Shown here one piece after another: positions 17,586 through 25,123 of a stretch of DNA of 64,000 nucleotides. The translations under genes and the position numbers were made by a program. The notes under the pieces are model-generated. The model saw only the letters and a list, made by a program, of their open reading frames with translations, made no database searches and was not told the DNA's origin. The stretch is from NCBI GenBank assembly GCA_007693785.1, contig RECY01000028.1:124001-188000 (forward strand), given 5' to 3'. Positions within the stretch are counted from its first letter, which is position 1. Every line of letters begins with the position of its first letter. The DNA comes from Phycisphaerales bacterium (GTDB lineage: Bacteria > Planctomycetota > Phycisphaerae > Phycisphaerales > UBA1924).

Positions 17586-17614
17586 TTGACTCCCCCGCAT
17601 CCGATTGGGAGCAT
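17586..17614 (+). promoter_or_regulatory. Candidate promoter of the histidine operon
   Basis: TTGACT at 17586-17591 matches five of six -35 positions. Seventeen bases on is GAGCAT (17609-17614), only three of six for a -10. The implied transcription start would lie close to the ribosome binding site of the leader ORF, so the true promoter could instead be further upstream. Confidence 0.3.
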
Positions 17615-17633
17615 TACCCGAAGGCAACCGCTC

Positions 17634-17702
17634 ATGACCATTCACGCGATCCATCACCGCAGCCACCATCTCCCGCCCACCCCGGGTTGGCACGCGGTCT
17701 GA
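17634..17702 (+). CDS. hisL: Histidine operon leader peptide (HisL-like, 22 codons)
   Basis: A short ORF of 22 codons with six His codons: MTIHAIHHRSHH followed by LPPTPGWHAV. His is otherwise rare, so 27 percent His directly upstream of hisG is far above chance. GAAGG stands about nine bases before the ATG. The stop codon lies at 17700-17702, just before structured RNA ending in a terminator-like hairpin. By analogy with hisL of enteric bacteria, ribosome stalling at the His codons when charged tRNA-His is scarce would steer RNA folding. The peptide is unrelated in sequence to enteric HisL, so this is convergent or very diverged. Confidence 0.8.
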   Translation: MTIHAIHHRSHHLPPTPGWHAV

Positions 17703-17774
17703 TCGCAACCGAGCGATCCATCCCCACAGGATGACCACGCGACGCCGACCCCGAGGGTGGGCGTCGTTGTCGTT
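17684..17774 (+). promoter_or_regulatory. Histidine operon transcription attenuator
   Basis: Two exclusive structures can be drawn. Terminator: 17740-17766 folds as CGACGCC / GGCGTCG plus ACCC / GGGT with one G-G mismatch and a three-base loop, followed by TTGTCGTT. Antiterminator: GGGTTGGC (17684-17691) pairs with GCCGACCC (17744-17751) over eight base pairs with one T-G, and the pairing extends with CGCG (17693-17696) to CGCG (17738-17741) and GTC to GAC around small bulges. The antiterminator uses the terminator's left arm. A ribosome stalled on the early His codons leaves 17684-17699 free; one at the stop codon covers it. This is read by eye and needs folding calculations. Confidence 0.75.
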
Positions 17775-17888
17775 CCGGGCCCCACAGTCTGCCGCGGCCC
17801 GCATCCTGATCCCACGCCTCCACCCGCCGCTCGCCTCGCCGGCTCGCCCCGCACTCCGGCTCGAGACCACGCCAAGGACCACCCGCCC

Positions 17889-18773
17889 ATGACACCGACC
17901 GCCGCACCCGACACCGTCCGCCTCGCCCTGCCGAAGGGGCGGATGAAGGACAGCCTGTTCGACCTGATGGGGGCGGCGGGCGTCAAGGTCACCGAGTCCA
18001 GCCGCGGCTACCGCCCGCGCCTCGCGCTCGAGGGCTTCGACGCCAAGATCCTGAAGCCGCAGTCGGTGATCCAGATGCTCCAGGCCGGCAGCCGCGACGT
18101 CGGCTTCGCCGGGGCCGACTGGGTCGCGGAGCTCGACGCGACCGGGCTCGTTGAGGTGATGGACCTGGGGCTCGACCCGGTCCGCCTCGTCGCGGCCGCC
18201 CCTTCGGACCTGCTCGACGCGGGCGGCAACCTGCCGACCGACCGCCCCCTGCTCGTCGCGAGCGAGATGGAACGCTTAACAACACGCTGGATCGAGTCCC
18301 GCGGTTTGAACGCCGTCTTCGTGCGCACCTATGGCGCGACCGAGGTCTTTCCGCCGGAAGACGCCGACTGCATCGTGGACATCACCCAGACCGGCTCCAC
18401 GCTCGAAGCCAACCGCCTGACCATCATCGACACGCTGCTGACGAGCTCCACACGCCTCTACGCGAACGAGGGCGCGATGGCCAACCCCGTCAAGCGCGAG
18501 CGGATCGAGCACCTCGCGCTGCTGCTGCGCTCGGTGCTGGAGGCGCGGGAGCGTGTGATGCTGGCGTTGAACGTCGCGAGCGAGTCGCTGGAGCGTGTGC
18601 TGGCGGCGCTGCCCTGCATGCGGGAGCCGACGGTCAGCCCGCTAAGCCACGACGCGGGGTACGCCGTCAGTTCGGCCGTGCCGCGTGCGGACCTCGCCCG
18701 CGTGATCCCGATCCTGAAGCAGGCCGGCGCGACGGACCTGGTCGTCACCCAGCCGAGCCTGATCGTCCGATGA
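17889..18773 (+). CDS. hisG: ATP phosphoribosyltransferase, long form
   Basis: A 294-residue enzyme for the first step of histidine synthesis, joining ATP and PRPP. VRLALPKGRMKDSLFDLM is the N-terminal signature and DCIVDITQTGSTLEANRL the PRPP-binding loop. The length and the C-terminal segment (residues 215-294, with PCMREPTVSPL) show the long form with its own ACT-like regulatory domain, normally feedback-inhibited by histidine and independent of HisZ. The start ATG 17889 puts the conserved RLALPKGR near residue 12. It is the first enzyme gene after the attenuator and overlaps the next gene by four bases. Confidence 0.95.
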   Translation: MTPTAAPDTVRLALPKGRMKDSLFDLMGAAGVKVTESSRGYRPRLALEGFDAKILKPQSVIQMLQAGSRDVGFAGADWVAELDATGLVEVMDLGLDPVRLVAAAPSDLLDAGGNLPTDRPLLVASEMERLTTRWIESRGLNAVFVRTYGATEVFPPEDADCIVDITQTGSTLEANRLTIIDTLLTSSTRLYANEGAMANPVKRERIEHLALLLRSVLEARERVMLALNVASESLERVLAALPCMREPTVSPLSHDAGYAVSSAVPRADLARVIPILKQAGATDLVVTQPSLIVR

Positions 18774-20515
18774 ACAACGCAAACGACATCCCGACCGCAT
18801 CGGCCGCCCCGCGCCCGATCCCGCTGCTGGAGCGGACCCGTGCCTACGCGGCCCCGGCCCACGGCGCGCCGATTGATTTGCGCCTCGACGCGAACGAAGG
18901 CCCCGCGCCGGACGGATCGATCCTCGACGCGCTCGCGGGCGAGCTGCCCGAACTGCTCCGCAGCTACCCGAGCGTCCGCACGCTCGAGGCGCTGCTCGCC
19001 GAGCGCGTCGGCGTCGCGCCCGAGCAACTCATGGTCACCGCCGGCGCGGACGACGCGCTCGACCGCGCCTGCCGCGCGGTGCTCGCCCCGGGACGCGAGC
19101 TGATCCTGCCCGTGCCGACGTTCGAGATGATCGAACGCTGGGCCGACCTCGCCGACGGGCGCACGATCAAGGTTGCGTGGCCCGCCGGCCCGCTCCCCGT
19201 CGATGTCATGCTCGAAGCCGTGACGCCCGAGACGGCGATGATCGCGGTGGTGACGCCGAACAACCCGACGGGCGCGGTGGCGACCGCGGACGACTTGCGC
19301 CGCCTTTCCGAGGCAGCGCCGCACGCGATGCTACTGGTGGACCTCGCGTACGAGGAGTTCGCGAGCGAGCCCCTGACAGGCATTGTGCGTGCGCTGCCGA
19401 ACGCGATCGGCGTGCGCACGCTCAGCAAGGCGTGGGGCCTCGCGGGCCTGCGCATCGGCTACGCGTTCGGAGCGGAGCGCATGATCGGCTGGCTGCGAGC
19501 CGTCGGCGGGCCGTTCCCCGTTGCCGCGCCCGCCGCCGCGATCGCCGCCCGCTGGCTCGAGGCCGGCGCGGCCTACGTCTGCGAGCAGGTCGGTGAGGCG
19601 AATCGCGCCCGCGCGAGCCTCGAACGCACGCTCATGAGTCTGGGCGCGGACGTCCTCCCCTCGCAAGCCAACTTCGCCGCCGCGCGCGTGCGGAACCCGT
19701 CGTGGGTGCGCGATGCGCTCGCCGGGCTCGGCATCGGCGTCCGCGTCTGGCCGACGCGACAGGGTTGCGAGGATCTCGTGCGCATCACCAGCCCGCAGAC
19801 GGATGCGGAGACGGCACGCGTGGAGCGTGCGCTCACCGCGGCCCTTCGCCCGGAGGCGATCCTCTTCGATCTCGACGGCGTGCTCGCGGATGTGAGCCGA
19901 TCGTACCGCACCGCGATCATCGAGACCGCGGCAGCCTTCGGCGTCACGCTCACCGCCGACGACGTGCGAGCCGCCAAGCGTCTGGGCAACGCGAACAACG
20001 ATTGGGTTCTCACGCACCGCCTCATCGAAGCCGCAGGCGTGCGCACGAGCCTTGATGCCGTCACCGAGCGGTTTGAGACGATTTATCAAGGCACCGGCTC
20101 GAACCCCGGGCTGCGCCGCACCGAGACCCTGCTCTGTGATCCGGACTGGTTGCGCGGCATGAGCGATCGTCTCCCGCTCGCGATCGTCACCGGTCGCCCG
20201 CGAGCCGACGCGGAGATCTTCCTCGTGGATCACGGCGTGCGCCATCACTTTCGCGAAGTCATCGCGATGGAAGACGGGCCCGCGAAGCCGGATCCCGCGG
20301 TTGTGCGCCTCGCGATGACGCGGCTGGGCGTGCGGGCGGGGTGGATGGTCGGCGACACCGTGGACGACGTGCGAGCCGCGCGGGGCGCCGGCGTCGTGCC
20401 GATCGGCGTGTGCGCACCCGGCGAGCAAAACGACGAAACCGTGCGCACGCTCCAGGCGAGCGGCACGGGGCGTGTGCTGCAACACCTCGAAGAACTGGAG
20501 AGCCTGCTGCCATGA
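18770..20515 (+). CDS. hisC: Histidinol-phosphate aminotransferase fused to HAD-type phosphatase
   Basis: A 581-residue two-domain protein. Residues 1-355 are HisC, a fold-type I PLP aminotransferase, with TLSKAWGLAGLRIGYAFG carrying the PLP lysine near 218 and NNPTGAVAT for substrate binding. Residues about 362-581 are a HAD hydrolase: FDLDGVLADVS (nucleophile Asp), IVTGRPRADA (motif II Thr), KPDPAVV (Lys) and MVGDTVDDVRAARGAG (motif IV). All four catalytic motifs are intact. No other histidinol-phosphate phosphatase is in the operon, so the HAD half probably supplies that step, giving two consecutive reactions in one chain. ATGA overlaps link it to hisG and hisB. Confidence 0.92.
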   Translation: MNNANDIPTASAAPRPIPLLERTRAYAAPAHGAPIDLRLDANEGPAPDGSILDALAGELPELLRSYPSVRTLEALLAERVGVAPEQLMVTAGADDALDRACRAVLAPGRELILPVPTFEMIERWADLADGRTIKVAWPAGPLPVDVMLEAVTPETAMIAVVTPNNPTGAVATADDLRRLSEAAPHAMLLVDLAYEEFASEPLTGIVRALPNAIGVRTLSKAWGLAGLRIGYAFGAERMIGWLRAVGGPFPVAAPAAAIAARWLEAGAAYVCEQVGEANRARASLERTLMSLGADVLPSQANFAAARVRNPSWVRDALAGLGIGVRVWPTRQGCEDLVRITSPQTDAETARVERALTAALRPEAILFDLDGVLADVSRSYRTAIIETAAAFGVTLTADDVRAAKRLGNANNDWVLTHRLIEAAGVRTSLDAVTERFETIYQGTGSNPGLRRTETLLCDPDWLRGMSDRLPLAIVTGRPRADAEIFLVDHGVRHHFREVIAMEDGPAKPDPAVVRLAMTRLGVRAGWMVGDTVDDVRAARGAGVVPIGVCAPGEQNDETVRTLQASGTGRVLQHLEELESLLP

Positions 20516-21114
20516 CCAACCCAGATCGAGATCCCCGCGCCGCCAAGGTCGAGCGTGCGACGAGTGAAACCCGCGTCCGCGTGTCCTGCACCATCGACGG
20601 CTCCGGACGAGCCGAGATCAGCACGGGCATCGGCTTCCTCGATCACCTCCTTACCGCTCTCGCGAAACACGCTCGCTTCGATCTGGAGCTGCGATGCGAG
20701 GGCGACCTGCACATCGACGACCACCACACGAGCGAGGATTGTGCGCTCGCGATCGGGGCTGCGGTCGATCAGGCGCTCGGCGAGCGTCGCGGCGTGCGCC
20801 GCTTCGGGACGGCGCACGCGCCGCTGGACGAATCACTCGCGAGGGCGGTGGTCGACCTCTCTGGACGACCGTTCGCGCACGCGGATCTGCGACTTTTGCG
20901 CGAGAAAATTGGAGACCTGAGCTGCGAGATGATCCCGCACGCCATCGCGTCGTTCGCGACCGCGGCTCGCGCGACAGTCCACGTTGACGTGCTGCGTGGG
21001 TCCAACGATCACCACAAGGCGGAGGCCGCGTTCAAGGCGTTGGCGCTCGCGCTGCGTGAGGCCGTGGCGATCGACGGTTCCTCGGAGATTCCGAGCACGA
21101 AGGGCACCCTGTGA
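20512..21114 (+). CDS. hisB: Imidazoleglycerol-phosphate dehydratase (monofunctional)
   Basis: A 200-residue HisB that dehydrates imidazoleglycerol phosphate. The duplicated metal-binding motifs are seen as GFLDHLLTALAKHARF and DDHHTSEDCALAIG in the first half, and as SNDHHKAEAAFKALALAL in the second. It lacks the N-terminal phosphatase domain of the enteric bifunctional HisB, consistent with the phosphatase being on HisC here. ATG 20512 overlaps the hisC stop (ATGA), and its own stop overlaps the hisH GTG. Confidence 0.95.
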   Translation: MTNPDRDPRAAKVERATSETRVRVSCTIDGSGRAEISTGIGFLDHLLTALAKHARFDLELRCEGDLHIDDHHTSEDCALAIGAAVDQALGERRGVRRFGTAHAPLDESLARAVVDLSGRPFAHADLRLLREKIGDLSCEMIPHAIASFATAARATVHVDVLRGSNDHHKAEAAFKALALALREAVAIDGSSEIPSTKGTL

Positions 21115-21770
21115 AGCTGAGCGATCGCATCGCCTCAAGGTGCGTCGTGGTGCGCACGGGGACGGCGAATATCGCGTCCGTCTGCGCCGCTCTCGCGCGT
21201 GCCGGGGTCGAACCGGTGGTCGATGACGACGCCCGCCTGATCGAAGCGGCACCGCTGGTCGTGCTCCCGGGCGTGGGCTCGTTCGGTGCGGCTCGCGCTT
21301 CGCTGGACGAGCACGGGCTCGTGCCCGTGCTGCGTGAGCGTGTCCTGGCGGGACGCCCGACGCTGGGGATCTGCCTCGGCTTTCAGTTGCTGTTTGAATC
21401 AAGCACGGAATCGCCGGGCGTTCCGGGGCTCGGCGTGTGCCACGCTACTGTCGAGCGATACGCGGCAGTAGATGGTGTGCGCGTGCCGCAGATGGGGTGG
21501 AACCGTGTGGACGCGCCGACCGGCTGCCGCGTGCTGCGAAGCGGGTGGGCGTATTTTGCGAACGCGTACCGCGTGCGCACGGACGCGATGCCTCGTGAGG
21601 GGTGGTTGACCGCAAACGCGACGCACGGCGAGCAATTCGTTGCGGCGATCGAGGCTTTCAACGGGCGTGTCGTGGCGTGTCAGGGGCACCCGGAGCTGAG
21701 CGGGGCGTGGGGTCGCGGGGTGCTGGAGCGGTGGGTGGCCGCGGCGAGGGCGGAGGTGCCGACGTGCTGA
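21111..21770 (+). CDS. hisH: Imidazole glycerol phosphate synthase, glutaminase subunit
   Basis: A 219-residue class I glutamine amidotransferase that feeds ammonia to His[13 protein letters not shown] contains the nucleophile Cys, and CQGHPELSG the catalytic His and Glu (the more usual form is FHPEKS). [10 protein letters not shown] and VPQMGWNRV are family signatures. The start is GTG at 21111, overlapping the hisB stop as GTGA. It directly precedes hisF, with which it overlaps by seven bases. Confidence 0.94.
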
Positions 21771-22555
21771 CGCGACGATTGATCCCGTGTTTGGACGTGC
21801 GCGACGGTCGCGTGGTGAAGGGCGTGCGGTTTCAGGGGCTGCGCGACGCGGGCGATCCTGCGGAACTCGCGGCGCGATACGAAGCGGAGGGGGCGGACGA
21901 GGTGGTAATCCTCGATGTTTCCGCGACGCCGGAGGGGCGTTCGAGCGCAGCGGACACGGTCGAGCGTGTTCGCACTGTGCTGGGTATCCCGCTCACGGTC
22001 GGCGGGGGCGTGCGCACGTGCGAGGACGCGTCGCGCTTGCTCGCGGCGGGGGCCGACAAAGTTGCGGTCAACACGGCGGCGGTGCTGCGCCCGGACCTGA
22101 TTGAGGAGCTCGCGCTACGCTTCGGATCGCAATGCACAGTCGTCGCGATCGACGCGGCAGTGCGCACGGGCGGTGCGCCGGGATGGGAAGTCGTGGTGCG
22201 ATCGGGAAGCGAGCGGACGGGGATTGATGCCGTCGAGTGGGCTCGGGCCTGCATGTCGCGGGGCGCGGGAGAGATCCTGCTGACGAGCTGGGATCGCGAC
22301 GGCACCGGGGAGGGGTACGACCTGGGGCTGCTTCGCGAGGTCTGCGGCGCGGTGGGTGTGCCCGTCATCGCTTCGGGCGGCGCGGACTCGGCGGCGCACA
22401 TGGCTGATGGCGTGCGAGCGGGGGCGGAAGCGCTTCTCGCGGCTTCGATTTTTCACGACGCGCGGCACACGGTGATCGACGTCAAACGTGCGCTCGCGTC
22501 GATGGGTGTGCCGGTGCGGCTCGAAGCCGATGATGCGGAAGGGGTGAACGCGTGA
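21764..22555 (+). CDS. hisF: Imidazole glycerol phosphate synthase, cyclase subunit
   Basis: A 263-residue TIM-barrel cyclase. Catalytic Asp residues are in [14 protein letters not shown] and [11 protein letters not shown], and the phosphate-binding loops are in [10 protein letters not shown] and [14 protein letters not shown]. With HisH it makes imidazoleglycerol phosphate and AICAR. The start is GTG 21764, inside the end of hisH (GTGCTGA), with GGAGG seven bases upstream, which implies translational coupling of the two subunits. Confidence 0.94.
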
Positions 22556-23841
22556 TCGTGCCGAGTATTGATCTGCAGGGCGGGCGTGCGGTGCAGCTCC
22601 GCGGCGGAAAAGAGCTGGTGATCGATGCGGGGGACCCGCGCCCGATCGCCGAGCGGTTCCGCGTTGCGGGTGAGATCGCGGTGGTGGACCTCGACGGCGC
22701 GACGGGTGAGGGGAGCAATGCCGAGCTGATGCGAGAGCTGTGCTCGATCGCGGATTGCCGCGTCGGCGGGGGAATCCGCGACGTGCGCACGGCGATCGAC
22801 TGGCTGAACGCGGGGGCGACGAAGGTTGTGCTCGGCACGGCGGCGAGGCCCGAGGTCTTGCGGGAACTGCCGCGTGAGCGAACGATCGCGGCGCTCGACG
22901 CGGTGCACGGCGAGGTCGTCGTCAAGGGCTGGCGCGAATCGACCGGGCGGACGGTGCTCGACCGCATCGACGAGCTGCGCGAGCATGTCGGCGGTTTTCT
23001 TGTGACGTTCGTCGAGCGCGAGGGGCGGATGGCGGGGATCGACGCGTCGGCGGTGGAAGAGATCGTTTCGCGGGCGGGGGATGTGCGCGTGACGATCGCC
23101 GGCGGTGTGCGCAATGCGGAGGATGTTCGTTTGCTGGATCGGCTCGGGTGCGATGCGCAGGTGGGGATGGCGATCTACAACGGCTCGATGGACCTCGGCG
23201 ACGCGATCTGTGCGCCGATGCGGAGCGATCGCACTGATGGCCTTTGGGCGACGGTGGTGTGCGATGAACGCGGGGTGGCGTTGGGGTTGTGCTATTCGAA
23301 CGCTGAGAGTGTGCGGGCGGCAGTGGAGCAGCGGCGCGGGGTGTACTGGTCGCGAAGCCGAGGCGGGCTGTGGGTGAAGGGTGAGACGAGCGGGGATGTG
23401 CAGGAGCTTGTGCGCATCGACCTGGACTGCGACCGCGACGCGATTCGGTTCACGGTGCGTCAGGCGGGGCGTGGGTTCTGCCACAACGGGACGCGAACGT
23501 GCTGGGGGGAGGACGGCGGCGTCGGACGGCTCGCGCGCACGATCGTGGCACGTGCGGGCGAAGCGCCGCCGGGGTCGTACACACGTCGCTTGTTGGAAGA
23601 TCGCGAGCTGCTGCGGTCGAAGCTGCTGGAGGAGGCGAACGAATTGCTCGACGCGTCGACGCCCGCGGAAGCCGCGTGGGAGGCGGCCGATGTGCTGTAC
23701 TTCGCGTTGGTCGCGGCGGGCGCGCGGGGGGCGGGGCTGGCGGAGATCGAGCGAGAGCTTGAACGGCGCGCACGTCGCGTGACGCGTCGGGGCGGGGACG
23801 CGAAGGGGAACGTGGAATTGACTCCCGGTACGGAGGGCTGA
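22552..23841 (+). CDS. hisA: HisA-HisI-HisE trifunctional fusion
   Basis: A 429-residue protein in which three enzymes follow each other. Residues 1-218 are HisA (ProFAR isomerase): [14 protein letters not shown] with the first catalytic Asp and [15 protein letters not shown] with the second. Residues about 220-325 are HisI (phosphoribosyl-AMP cyclohydrolase): DLDCDRDAI supplies metal-binding Asp residues and [10 protein letters not shown] the Cys ligands. Residues about 340-415 are HisE (phosphoribosyl-ATP pyrophosphatase), a helical MazG-like unit with [19 protein letters not shown] and [10 protein letters not shown]. Together they catalyse steps two to four. There is no frameshift or stop between domains. 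GTGA overlap joins it to hisF. Confidence 0.93.
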
Positions 23842-23842
23842 C

Positions 23843-25123
23843 GTGGCACGGGGATTTGTCATGGCTCGTTTGCTGAAGATAGTCTCGGCTTCGGAGCTCG
23901 CGGGCGTGCGCCGCTCGCCGGTGGACGCGCCGACGCTGGCTGCGGCGGCTTCGATCGTCGACGATGTGCGCACGGGGGGCGGCGCCGCGTTGCGGGCGTT
24001 CGCGGAGCGGTTTGGGGATGTGGAGGCGGGCGGGGCGTTGGTGATCGAGCGCGACGAACTGGATCGTGCGCTCGCTTCGCTCGATGCTGCGTCGCGCAGC
24101 GTGCTGGAGCGTGCGGCGGGGCGGATCCGCGTGTTCGCCGAGGCGCAGCGGGCGAGCGTGCGCGACGTGGAGGTGCCGGTGCCGGGGGGCGTGGGGGGGC
24201 AGTCGGTCGCGCCCGTGGAGCGTGCGGGGTGCTATGCGCCCGGCGGGCGGTACCCGCTCCCGTCGAGCGTGCTGATGACGGCGGTGACGGCTCGTGCGGC
24301 GGGCGTGGAGGACGTCACGGTGGCGTCGCCGCGTGCTGGGGTGGTGACGCTGGCGGCGGCGGCGGTCGCAGGGGCGGACCGCGTGCTGTGCGCGGGCGGG
24401 GCGCAGGCGATCGCGGCGATGGCGCACGGGGTCGATGGGGTGTTGGGGGCGTGCGACGTGATCGTGGGGCCGGGGAATCGGTGGGTGACGGCGGCGAAGC
24501 AGCTTGTGGCGGGGTTTGTGCGCATCGACATGCTCGCCGGGCCGAGCGAGCTCGTGGTGCTGGCGGATGGGGGCGCGGACGCGGGGACGGTGGCGGCGGA
24601 TCTGCTGGCGCAGGCCGAGCATGATGATGATGCGTCGGCGGTGCTCGTGACGACCGATGCGGGACTCGCGGATGCGGTGGAGCGTGAGCTGCGCGCACAA
24701 TTAGCGTCGTTGCCGACGCGGGCGACGGCCGAGCGTGCGCTGGGGAACGGGTTTTGCGTGCTCGTGCGTGATCTGAACGAGGGCGTGGACGTCTGCGACC
24801 GCCTCGCGCCGGAGCACTTGGAGTTGCTGGTCGAGAACGCGGACGCGCTCCGTCCGCGCTTGCGTCACTACGGCGGACTGTTCGTCGGCTCGGCGGCGGC
24901 GGAGGTGCTGGGGGATTACGGGATCGGGCCGAACCACACGCTGCCGACCGGGGGAACGGCGCGGTCGAGCGGCGGGCTGAGCGTGTTCGATTTTCTGCGC
25001 GTGCGGACGTGGCTGCGGGTTGATGACGCCGCTGGCGCACGCGGTGCGATCGAGGACGCGGCGGCGCTGGCTTGCCTCGAGGGGCTCGAAGGGCATGCGC
25101 GGAGTGCGCTGCGGCGTTTGTAG
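23843..25123 (+). CDS. hisD: Histidinol dehydrogenase
   Basis: A 426-residue NAD-dependent, zinc-binding enzyme for the last two oxidations to histidine. Family signatures are GCYAPGGRYPLPSSVLM, DVIVGPGNRWVTAAK, IDMLAGPSELVVLAD and the catalytic DRLAPEHLEL; QAEHD and FVGSAAAEVLGDYGIGPNH complete the active site. GTG 23843 is chosen because GGAGG lies six bases upstream, although ATG 23861 is also possible. It is the last gene of the operon, convergent with the amidohydrolase array. Confidence 0.95.
   Translation: MARGFVMARLLKIVSASELAGVRRSPVDAPTLAAAASIVDDVRTGGGAALRAFAERFGDVEAGGALVIERDELDRALASLDAASRSVLERAAGRIRVFAEAQRASVRDVEVPVPGGVGGQSVAPVERAGCYAPGGRYPLPSSVLMTAVTARAAGVEDVTVASPRAGVVTLAAAAVAGADRVLCAGGAQAIAAMAHGVDGVLGACDVIVGPGNRWVTAAKQLVAGFVRIDMLAGPSELVVLADGGADAGTVAADLLAQAEHDDDASAVLVTTDAGLADAVERELRAQLASLPTRATAERALGNGFCVLVRDLNEGVDVCDRLAPEHLELLVENADALRPRLRHYGGLFVGSAAAEVLGDYGIGPNHTLPTGGTARSSGGLSVFDFLRVRTWLRVDDAAGARGAIEDAAALACLEGLEGHARSALRRL

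Follow-up and report, generated by a model that had tools for sequence, protein, structure and literature searches.

The window, the 64,000-nucleotide stretch of a Phycisphaerales contig that was analysed as a whole, carries a histidine biosynthesis operon preceded by a short, histidine-rich open reading frame (ORF) and by RNA strands able to form competing helices. The features, in positions of the window, are as follows:

17586-17591, plus strand: predicted -35 box TTGACT
17609-17614, plus strand: putative -10 box GAGCAT, a poor match, placed by a 17-nt spacer
17620-17624, plus strand: Shine–Dalgarno (SD)-like GAAGG (SD words are not enriched among relatives)
17634-17702, plus strand: leader peptide ORF of 22 codons, 6 of them His, reading MTIHAIHHRSHHLPPTPGWHAV up to its stop codon
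17646-17706, plus strand: 1:2 (protector) stem, from the minimum free energy fold and a coevolution test
17674-17682, plus strand: extra antiterminator strand CGCCCACCC, able to pair with the terminator 3′ arm at 17755-17763
17684-17696, plus strand: antiterminator strand (strand 2), pairing with 17739-17751
17740-17766, plus strand: terminator hairpin, from fold, energy and stem-pair co-variation
17767-17774, plus strand: T-rich tail TTGTCGTT, weak, with five T in eight
17889-18773, plus strand: hisG, long form with HisG_C domain (PF01634, PF08029, TIGR00070 and TIGR03455 all over cut-off)
18770-20515, plus strand: hisC-like aminotransferase fused to a HAD hydrolase (TIGR01141, hisC, below cut-off; TIGR01548 above)
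20518-21114, plus strand: hisB dehydratase, start approximate
21111-21770, plus strand: hisH
21764-22555, plus strand: hisF
22552-23841, plus strand: hisA-hisIE fusion (hisA and HisIE models below their cut-offs; TIGR03188 domain above)
23861-25123, plus strand: hisD, start approximate

The leader ORF lies 186 nt upstream of hisG, whose product is a long-form ATP phosphoribosyltransferase, and its His codons are at 17643, 17652, 17655, 17664, 17667 and 17691. The initial annotation had described a 22-codon ORF with six His codons, and its coordinates are right, almost base for base. It had also given this ORF a ribosome binding site: GAAGG is present, but it is a weak site and SD-like only. 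Two gene fusions stand out in the operon. The HAD part of the fusion at 18770-20515 (TIGR01548) is possibly the source of the histidinol-phosphate phosphatase, and HisA and HisIE are joined in a single 429-aa protein.

A terminator-like hairpin had been claimed at 17740-17766, and its pairs are located there: 17740-17746 with 17760-17766 and 17748-17751 with 17755-17758, separated by a G17747/G17759 mismatch and closed by the loop CGA, with an energy of -22.9 kcal/mol. The helix proposed to take its left arm was likewise recovered, as GGGTTGGC at 17684-17691 pairs with GCCGACCC at 17744-17751, and 17693-17695 adds pairs with 17739-17741; the antiterminator duplex amounts to -20.4 kcal/mol, and the helix 17684-17691/17744-17751 excludes the terminator hairpin. 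The strand at 17674-17682 is a feature absent from that earlier reading, and since it can pair with the 3′ arm, the antiterminator of the window sequesters both terminator arms. The 1:2 stem is composed of 17646-17651/17701-17706, 17656-17660/17694-17698 and 17662-17665/17688-17691. Folding of 17634-17790, a check that the initial annotation had suggested, gave -64.2 kcal/mol against a shuffled mean of -52.64 (sd 4, z -2.89), and 1 of 200 shuffles was as good as the native sequence.

HisG was matched in 86 of the 163 genomes of the window's family (f1), a set that includes no further species of the window's own genus. Regions were assembled for 85 of the 86 (G127, whose HisG match starts 47 nt from a contig end, was left out), and 84 have upstream sequence, L092 being the one without. 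Searching within 450 nt upstream, we found a short ORF with at least three His in 10 codons at 81 of the 84 hisG loci, compared with 7.4% of shuffles and 16/84 reverse complements; the stricter test of at least four His in 10 was passed by 79/84 loci, 1.2% of shuffles and 3/84 reverse complements. A search for such ORFs upstream of hisG in related genomes had been suggested, and loss of the His codons had been named as evidence against the proposal; with 81 of 84 loci keeping a His-rich ORF, retention is by far the commoner outcome. By eye and spacing, 83 leaders from 40 genera were retained (L096 was left out, and the starts of L012, L014, L032, L088 and L042 were set by hand). They are 14-28 codons long and have 2 to 9 His (median 6), written as CAT 276 times and as CAC 238 times; His occurs 514 times in frame versus 20 and 49 times in the other two frames. 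Both codons are used and His is in excess in frame, and therefore it is the codon meaning that is kept, which points to selection on that meaning.

Some members are weak. The genus g75 leaders L038, L040, L061 and L070 keep just 2-4 His, and the remaining weak cases, L014 (G012) and L096 (G062), come from genus g13, in which three genomes have hisG. L014 (MLFSQAHLACTQCHAAPGGPAFCM) and L096 (MFTCMHQHTQMCQPKGLACCRVLESAATNHHLA) have few His and several Cys codons, with promoter spacing and hairpin retained, and the third g13 genome with hisG has a normal His leader (L079). As for hisG itself, it was unmatched in 77 of the 163 family genomes, and a Pfam HisG search found HisG in 12 of 28 family members, the same 12 as the earlier HisG search, and no match in the other 16; many of the genomes without a match are >90% complete. 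The gene may be absent from them, and it is possible that these organisms are histidine auxotrophs or have replaced the first step.

Complementary G+C-rich words that vary in step between genomes are found where the leader ORF ends and in the terminator 5′ arm, e.g., GGGTTGGC/GCCGACCC (window), GGTCGGCG/CGCCGACC in L062, AACCGGT/GCCGGTT in L002, ACCCGGT/GCCGGGT in L050 and GGCCGGT/ACCGGCC in L007. Over the family, the antiterminator duplex has a native mean of -16.63 kcal/mol against -15.47 (sd 0.19) when strands are swapped between genomes, with 0 of 20,000 permutations as good, a procedure that removes relatedness only partly. When each genus was represented by a single row (n = 40; 1000 permutations in each of 50 draws), the fraction of permutations as good as the native set was 0.0014 on average and 0.014 at most. 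The 1:2 duplex, which joins the His codons with the stop-codon region, gave -22.3 versus -19.3 swapped (0/5000). In the terminator, four of eight pairs show pair-keeping double changes, in 21, 1, 2 and 3 sequences of an alignment (A1) of 66 of the 79 listed leaders, L010, L014, L015 and L085 having been left off the list; for L029 and L032, the hairpin nearer the leader was taken as terminator. Loss of the helices or missing compensatory changes had also been named as counting against the proposal, and what we observe is that the helices persist and compensatory changes are present.

In the window, 19 nt separate the end of the predicted -10 box from the ATG, and TTGAC starts 48 nt upstream of that codon. 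Of the 83 family leaders, 69 have TTGAC beginning 33-40 nt upstream of the start codon (expectation at 33-41 nt: 0.6% of shuffles). In 81 of the 83, the distance from the end of the best predicted -10 box to the start codon is 5-11 nt, by a scan without a shuffled control; the -10 spacing of L042 also fits when an upstream ATG is taken as the start. SD 4-mers precede 6/83 leader ORFs, which is no enrichment over the 7.4% expected by chance. At hisG, an SD 4-mer stands before at least one candidate start at 71/82 loci, a more lenient count because several candidate starts were tried. The -10 spacing and the missing SD enrichment suggest that the leader ORF is probably leaderless in nearly all relatives: judging from predicted promoter spacing, most family leader ORFs probably begin at, or a few bases from, the 5′ end of the transcript. 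The window is an exception to this layout, with about 12 nt of predicted 5′ UTR and its GAAGG, and L141 of family f2, with TTGAC 58 nt before the ATG, is a second. The leaderless start is a probable distinctive trait of this His attenuator.

It is very likely, on the evidence of sequence and comparison, that the element in the window is a ribosome-mediated transcription attenuator of the his operon. The ORF, the helices, their co-variation, the switching geometry and the linkage to hisG can be read directly from the genomes, and from them we infer where transcription starts, that the leader is translated, that transcription terminates and that histidine is sensed. RNA polymerase would start about 12 nt ahead of the leader ORF, trailed by a ribosome. 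When His-tRNA(His) is charged, the ribosome would reach the stop codon and cover 17684-17696, the hairpin at 17740-17766 would form and transcription would end before hisG. When it is uncharged, the ribosome would stall on one of the first four His codons, leaving 17674-17696 free to pair with the terminator arms, and the antiterminator so formed would permit read-through into hisG-hisC/HAD-hisB-hisH-hisF-hisA/IE-hisD. Without translation, the 1:2 stem could hold strand 2, yet window RNA ending at the terminator is predicted to favour the antiterminator. In most relatives, the ribosome probably initiates leaderless, at a 5′-terminal AUG or GUG.

The geometry was evaluated with an assumed ribosome footprint of about 12 nt and with strand 2 sought from -27 to +9 of the stop codon. 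All 83 leaders have one or more His codons at which a stalled ribosome would leave strand 2 free, and in all of them the terminator begins more than 12 nt past the stop. The initial annotation had placed 17684 outside the footprint of a ribosome stalled on the early His codons, and folding of the window agrees, giving the antiterminator at the first four. With the A-site at 17643, 17652, 17655 or 17664, the dot-bracket strings, from which the antiterminator state was taken, show an extended antiterminator in which strands of 17674-17691 take both terminator arms; at the fifth His (17667) the result is mostly the terminator (P 0.77), and at 17691 or the stop codon it is the terminator. With a ribosome stalled where His codons are densest, pairing between strand 2 and the 5′ arm in the growing RNA exceeds 0.5 in 82 of 83 leaders; the zero pairing obtained with the ribosome at the stop codon follows from the construction of the calculation and is not evidence. 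In ribosome-free RNA, antiterminator pairing exceeds 0.5 in 33/83 leaders, the window included (0.83), so termination in the absence of translation is not a firm feature. The ribosome-free window RNA prefers the antiterminator when it ends at 17766 or 17774 (terminator 0.00 and 0.07), and 17790 is the sole end point at which the terminator is favoured (0.81). At equilibrium, a stalled ribosome does not keep most leaders from forming the terminator (median 0.98; the window differs, at 0.02); consequently, switching in most relatives has to depend on the antiterminator being the earlier structure to fold. The His codons of the relatives, the co-varying helices and this stall folding support the attenuator that the initial annotation had inferred.

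A model built from 66 family leaders (R1) has matches in 78 of the 86 family genomes that carry HisG, and in 11 that do not. The window scores just 33.3 bits (E 0.0039) despite being one of its 66 rows. Two of the 11 HisG-less genomes were examined (G073 and G017), and their matches are plain terminators. Inspection of 20 further matches gave three hisG leaders, one leader-like case (L138) and 16 that look like ordinary terminators. L138 (G293:C10) reads MTVRSTSSAAMHAHRMHKHMCKKQHMCLLALGTC, has the TTGAC spacing and a terminator, and stands before a 282-aa protein without a Pfam match; its genome also has a normal His leader at hisG.

Other explanations of the same arrangement have to be weighed. 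Instead of acting on an intrinsic terminator, stalling could expose or hide the ribosome binding site of hisG, or a Rho site. The weak U-tract of the window would suit such translational or Rho-dependent control, and Rho-type attenuation is proposed for mycobacterial cys leaders in the available text of PMC1262725. We consider this improbable, as the family hairpins have median values of -19.6 kcal/mol and, over the 12 nt that follow, 5 T (two hairpins misassigned), and their stem pairs are compensated. The hairpins end 47-238 nt before the hisG match (the same two misassigned, and the match can begin some codons inside the gene), and thus they mostly fall short of the hisG binding site. It is less probable still that the short ORF encodes a stable small His-rich protein, metal-binding or regulatory, with the hairpin as its own terminator or that of an upstream transcript. 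Metal binding by runs such as HHHHHH is conceivable, the hairpin is directly 3′ of the ORF, the leader-like ORF of L138 precedes a gene other than hisG, and trans-acting leader peptides exist, e.g., peTrpL of S. meliloti in the available text of PMC7298713. However, sequence outside the His run and length vary freely, the leaders precede hisG and share its orientation, a plain gene followed by a terminator has no need of co-variation between strand 2 and the terminator, and the family R1 matches better than E 6.6e-6 are all at hisG.

Short ORFs and strong hairpins arise easily in GC-rich DNA, and 16 of the 20 inspected R1 matches away from family hisG are free of any leader. A chance His-rich ORF in a GC-rich leader, devoid of regulatory role, is nevertheless extremely unlikely given 81/84 family loci against 7.4% of shuffles and, among the best 80 named loci described below, 51 against 0.3%; for the family as a whole, we rejected it on the former figures.

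Family f2, of the same order, has a leader with hisG at three loci (L132, L141 and L142). In a sample of the phylum, leaders accompany HisG of at least 55% identity in eight further families (f11, f72, f24, f83, f49, f38, f26 and f35), and no leader was found at L231 and L236, which have HisG in that same range. At 11 order-level loci with HisG of 35-39% identity (L016-L026), no leader was found. Among the 13 loci of the phylum sample with HisG below 50%, L252 is convincing, L245 has a weak His-rich ORF, ten have none and L244 was left unscored. At L252 (G457), a divergent HisG (39% identity) is preceded by the His-rich ORF MTTILHVFHHCIHHHLRHSPERGSQVC and by a hairpin with a run of nine T; this is a possible separate His attenuator.

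From a HisG alignment scan of GTDB species genomes we took the best 80 named loci, several of them shared with the family set. A leader (at least four His in 10 codons) is present in 51/80, against 0/80 on the reverse strand and 0.3% of shuffles. By record title, leaders among these best 80 are distributed as follows: Planctomycetota (30/31), Acidobacteriota (4/4), Gemmatimonadota (3/3), Myxococcota (4/11), Gammaproteobacteria (3/3), other Pseudomonadota without class (4/7), Alphaproteobacteria (0/10), Sumerlaeota (1/2), Spirochaetota (1/1), Actinomycetota (1/1) and unassigned records (0/7); most records are metagenome bins, so single phylum labels may be wrong. An element confined to planctomycetes was rejected in view of the leaders under other phylum labels. 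A looser test of the best 80 loci gave 54 rows, of which two (L211 and L215) look like chance; in 50 of the remaining 52, TTG[ACT][CAT] lies 33-41 nt before the start, with tied starts chosen for spacing. A blind count on the same 80 loci, using the earliest start, gave TTG[AC]C in 31/51 and SD words in 6/51. Strands swapped in a second set of 32 leader loci (10 Planctomycetota and 22 with other labels) gave -14.99 versus -16.55 native (1/20,000).

Of the 22 leader loci labelled as other phyla, R1 matches 13 at E ≤0.011 and 18 at E ≤1 (E-values rough), on the sense strand and upstream of hisG, and 0/25 leader-free loci at E up to 1 (L218, the 26th such locus, was left out). The 13/22 against 0/25 speaks for a shared element, although convergence on a G+C-rich terminator word is conceivable. 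In the HisG tree, 38 of 77 inner branches have support below 80, which is too weak to separate descent from transfer. We give even odds to the joint proposition that leaderless His attenuators of one family, either old or widely transferred and tied to one long-form HisG type, span several phyla, and that these are Planctomycetota, Acidobacteriota, Gemmatimonadota, Myxococcota and some Gammaproteobacteria. If true, the leader ORF would occupy the first bases of the transcript and the sensing ribosome would be loaded leaderless as the RNA emerges, not via a Shine–Dalgarno.

No Rfam family reaches threshold in the window, T-box and the His_leader RF00514 included, and on that ground a T-box or known Rfam leader was rejected. 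With E up to 5, RF00514 was not found in 18 leader loci, where three sub-threshold matches appeared; a sub-threshold Thr_leader (RF00506) covers the leader of L159 with 28.8 bits against a cut-off of 55. Enteric hisL (RF00514) likewise has a His-rich leader ORF before a his operon, with terminator/antiterminator competition and the same mode of action; the present element, in contrast, has different helices with a GCCGGC core and no RF00514 match by the test used. The hisL leader has a 5′ UTR and an SD, whereas the leaders of the relatives appear leaderless.

For his genes, regulation by a leader peptide is established in enterics, and some Firmicutes are predicted to use it as well, according to the available text of PMC9413887, PMC2965389 and PMC4833913, with predictions in the Bacillus cereus group, Eubacteriales and Erysipelotrichales (PMC9413887) and at hisS/hisZ of bacilli (PMC2965389). 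These are, likewise, predicted attenuators outside Proteobacteria, and no leaderless design is seen in the available text of those two sources. Mapped leaderless leader peptides are described in the accessible portions of PMC7298713 (Sinorhizobium meliloti trpL) and PMC8079986 (Streptomyces lividans leuL, trpL and ilvL). There too the ORF is at the transcript 5′ end and is followed by an attenuator, but the amino acids and the RNA are others and the starts are mapped, whereas the present starts are predictions based on promoter spacing. Actinobacterial trp attenuators with gGCC-rGCy-GGCC triples, as given in the available text of PMC1262725, similarly use one G+C-rich word at the leader end and in both terminator arms; those attenuators sense trp and the present element his, and the same text gives no conserved element upstream of Actinobacteria his operons. 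In Flavobacteriaceae, the accessible part of PMC9723704 likewise has an unnamed structured 5′ element upstream of hisG, and leader peptides suspected at amino-acid operons.

In the open-access literature, we found no His leader for Planctomycetota, Acidobacteriota, Gemmatimonadota or Myxococcota, and no leaderless His leader. The mechanism is a textbook one, unreported for histidine in these phyla as far as we searched, and we have high confidence that the attenuator is real. It would constitute a cis-acting His sensor that can be found automatically with R1 and the ORF test, and offers >80 natural variants for testing ribosome–RNA polymerase coupling by leaderless initiation.

Finally, other amino-acid leaders were noticed in the order. 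Upstream of leuA, L315 (G044) and L317 (G045) have Leu-rich short ORFs (MSTQRSIPTAPLLGLLLLSAHCG and MQIIPPIHAAATLPLAGLLLLGAHAG, respectively). Each has TTGA upstream of its ATG, at 39 and 36 nt, respectively, and a terminator-like stretch that includes a T-run; they are possible leaderless Leu attenuators of two other families. The same test gave no Leu leader at L316 and L318, the other two loci over the leuA cut-off. A Trp-codon pattern was dropped as a leader search, being too unspecific, and the upstream regions of trpE show no general Trp leader, most other trpE loci being without an ORF like that of L309. At L309 (G004), a short ORF upstream of trpE (MTRSPSVRSWWYPLL) has TTGAT 34 nt before its ATG and is followed by a hairpin and then eight T, and it is possible that it represents a leaderless Trp attenuator.
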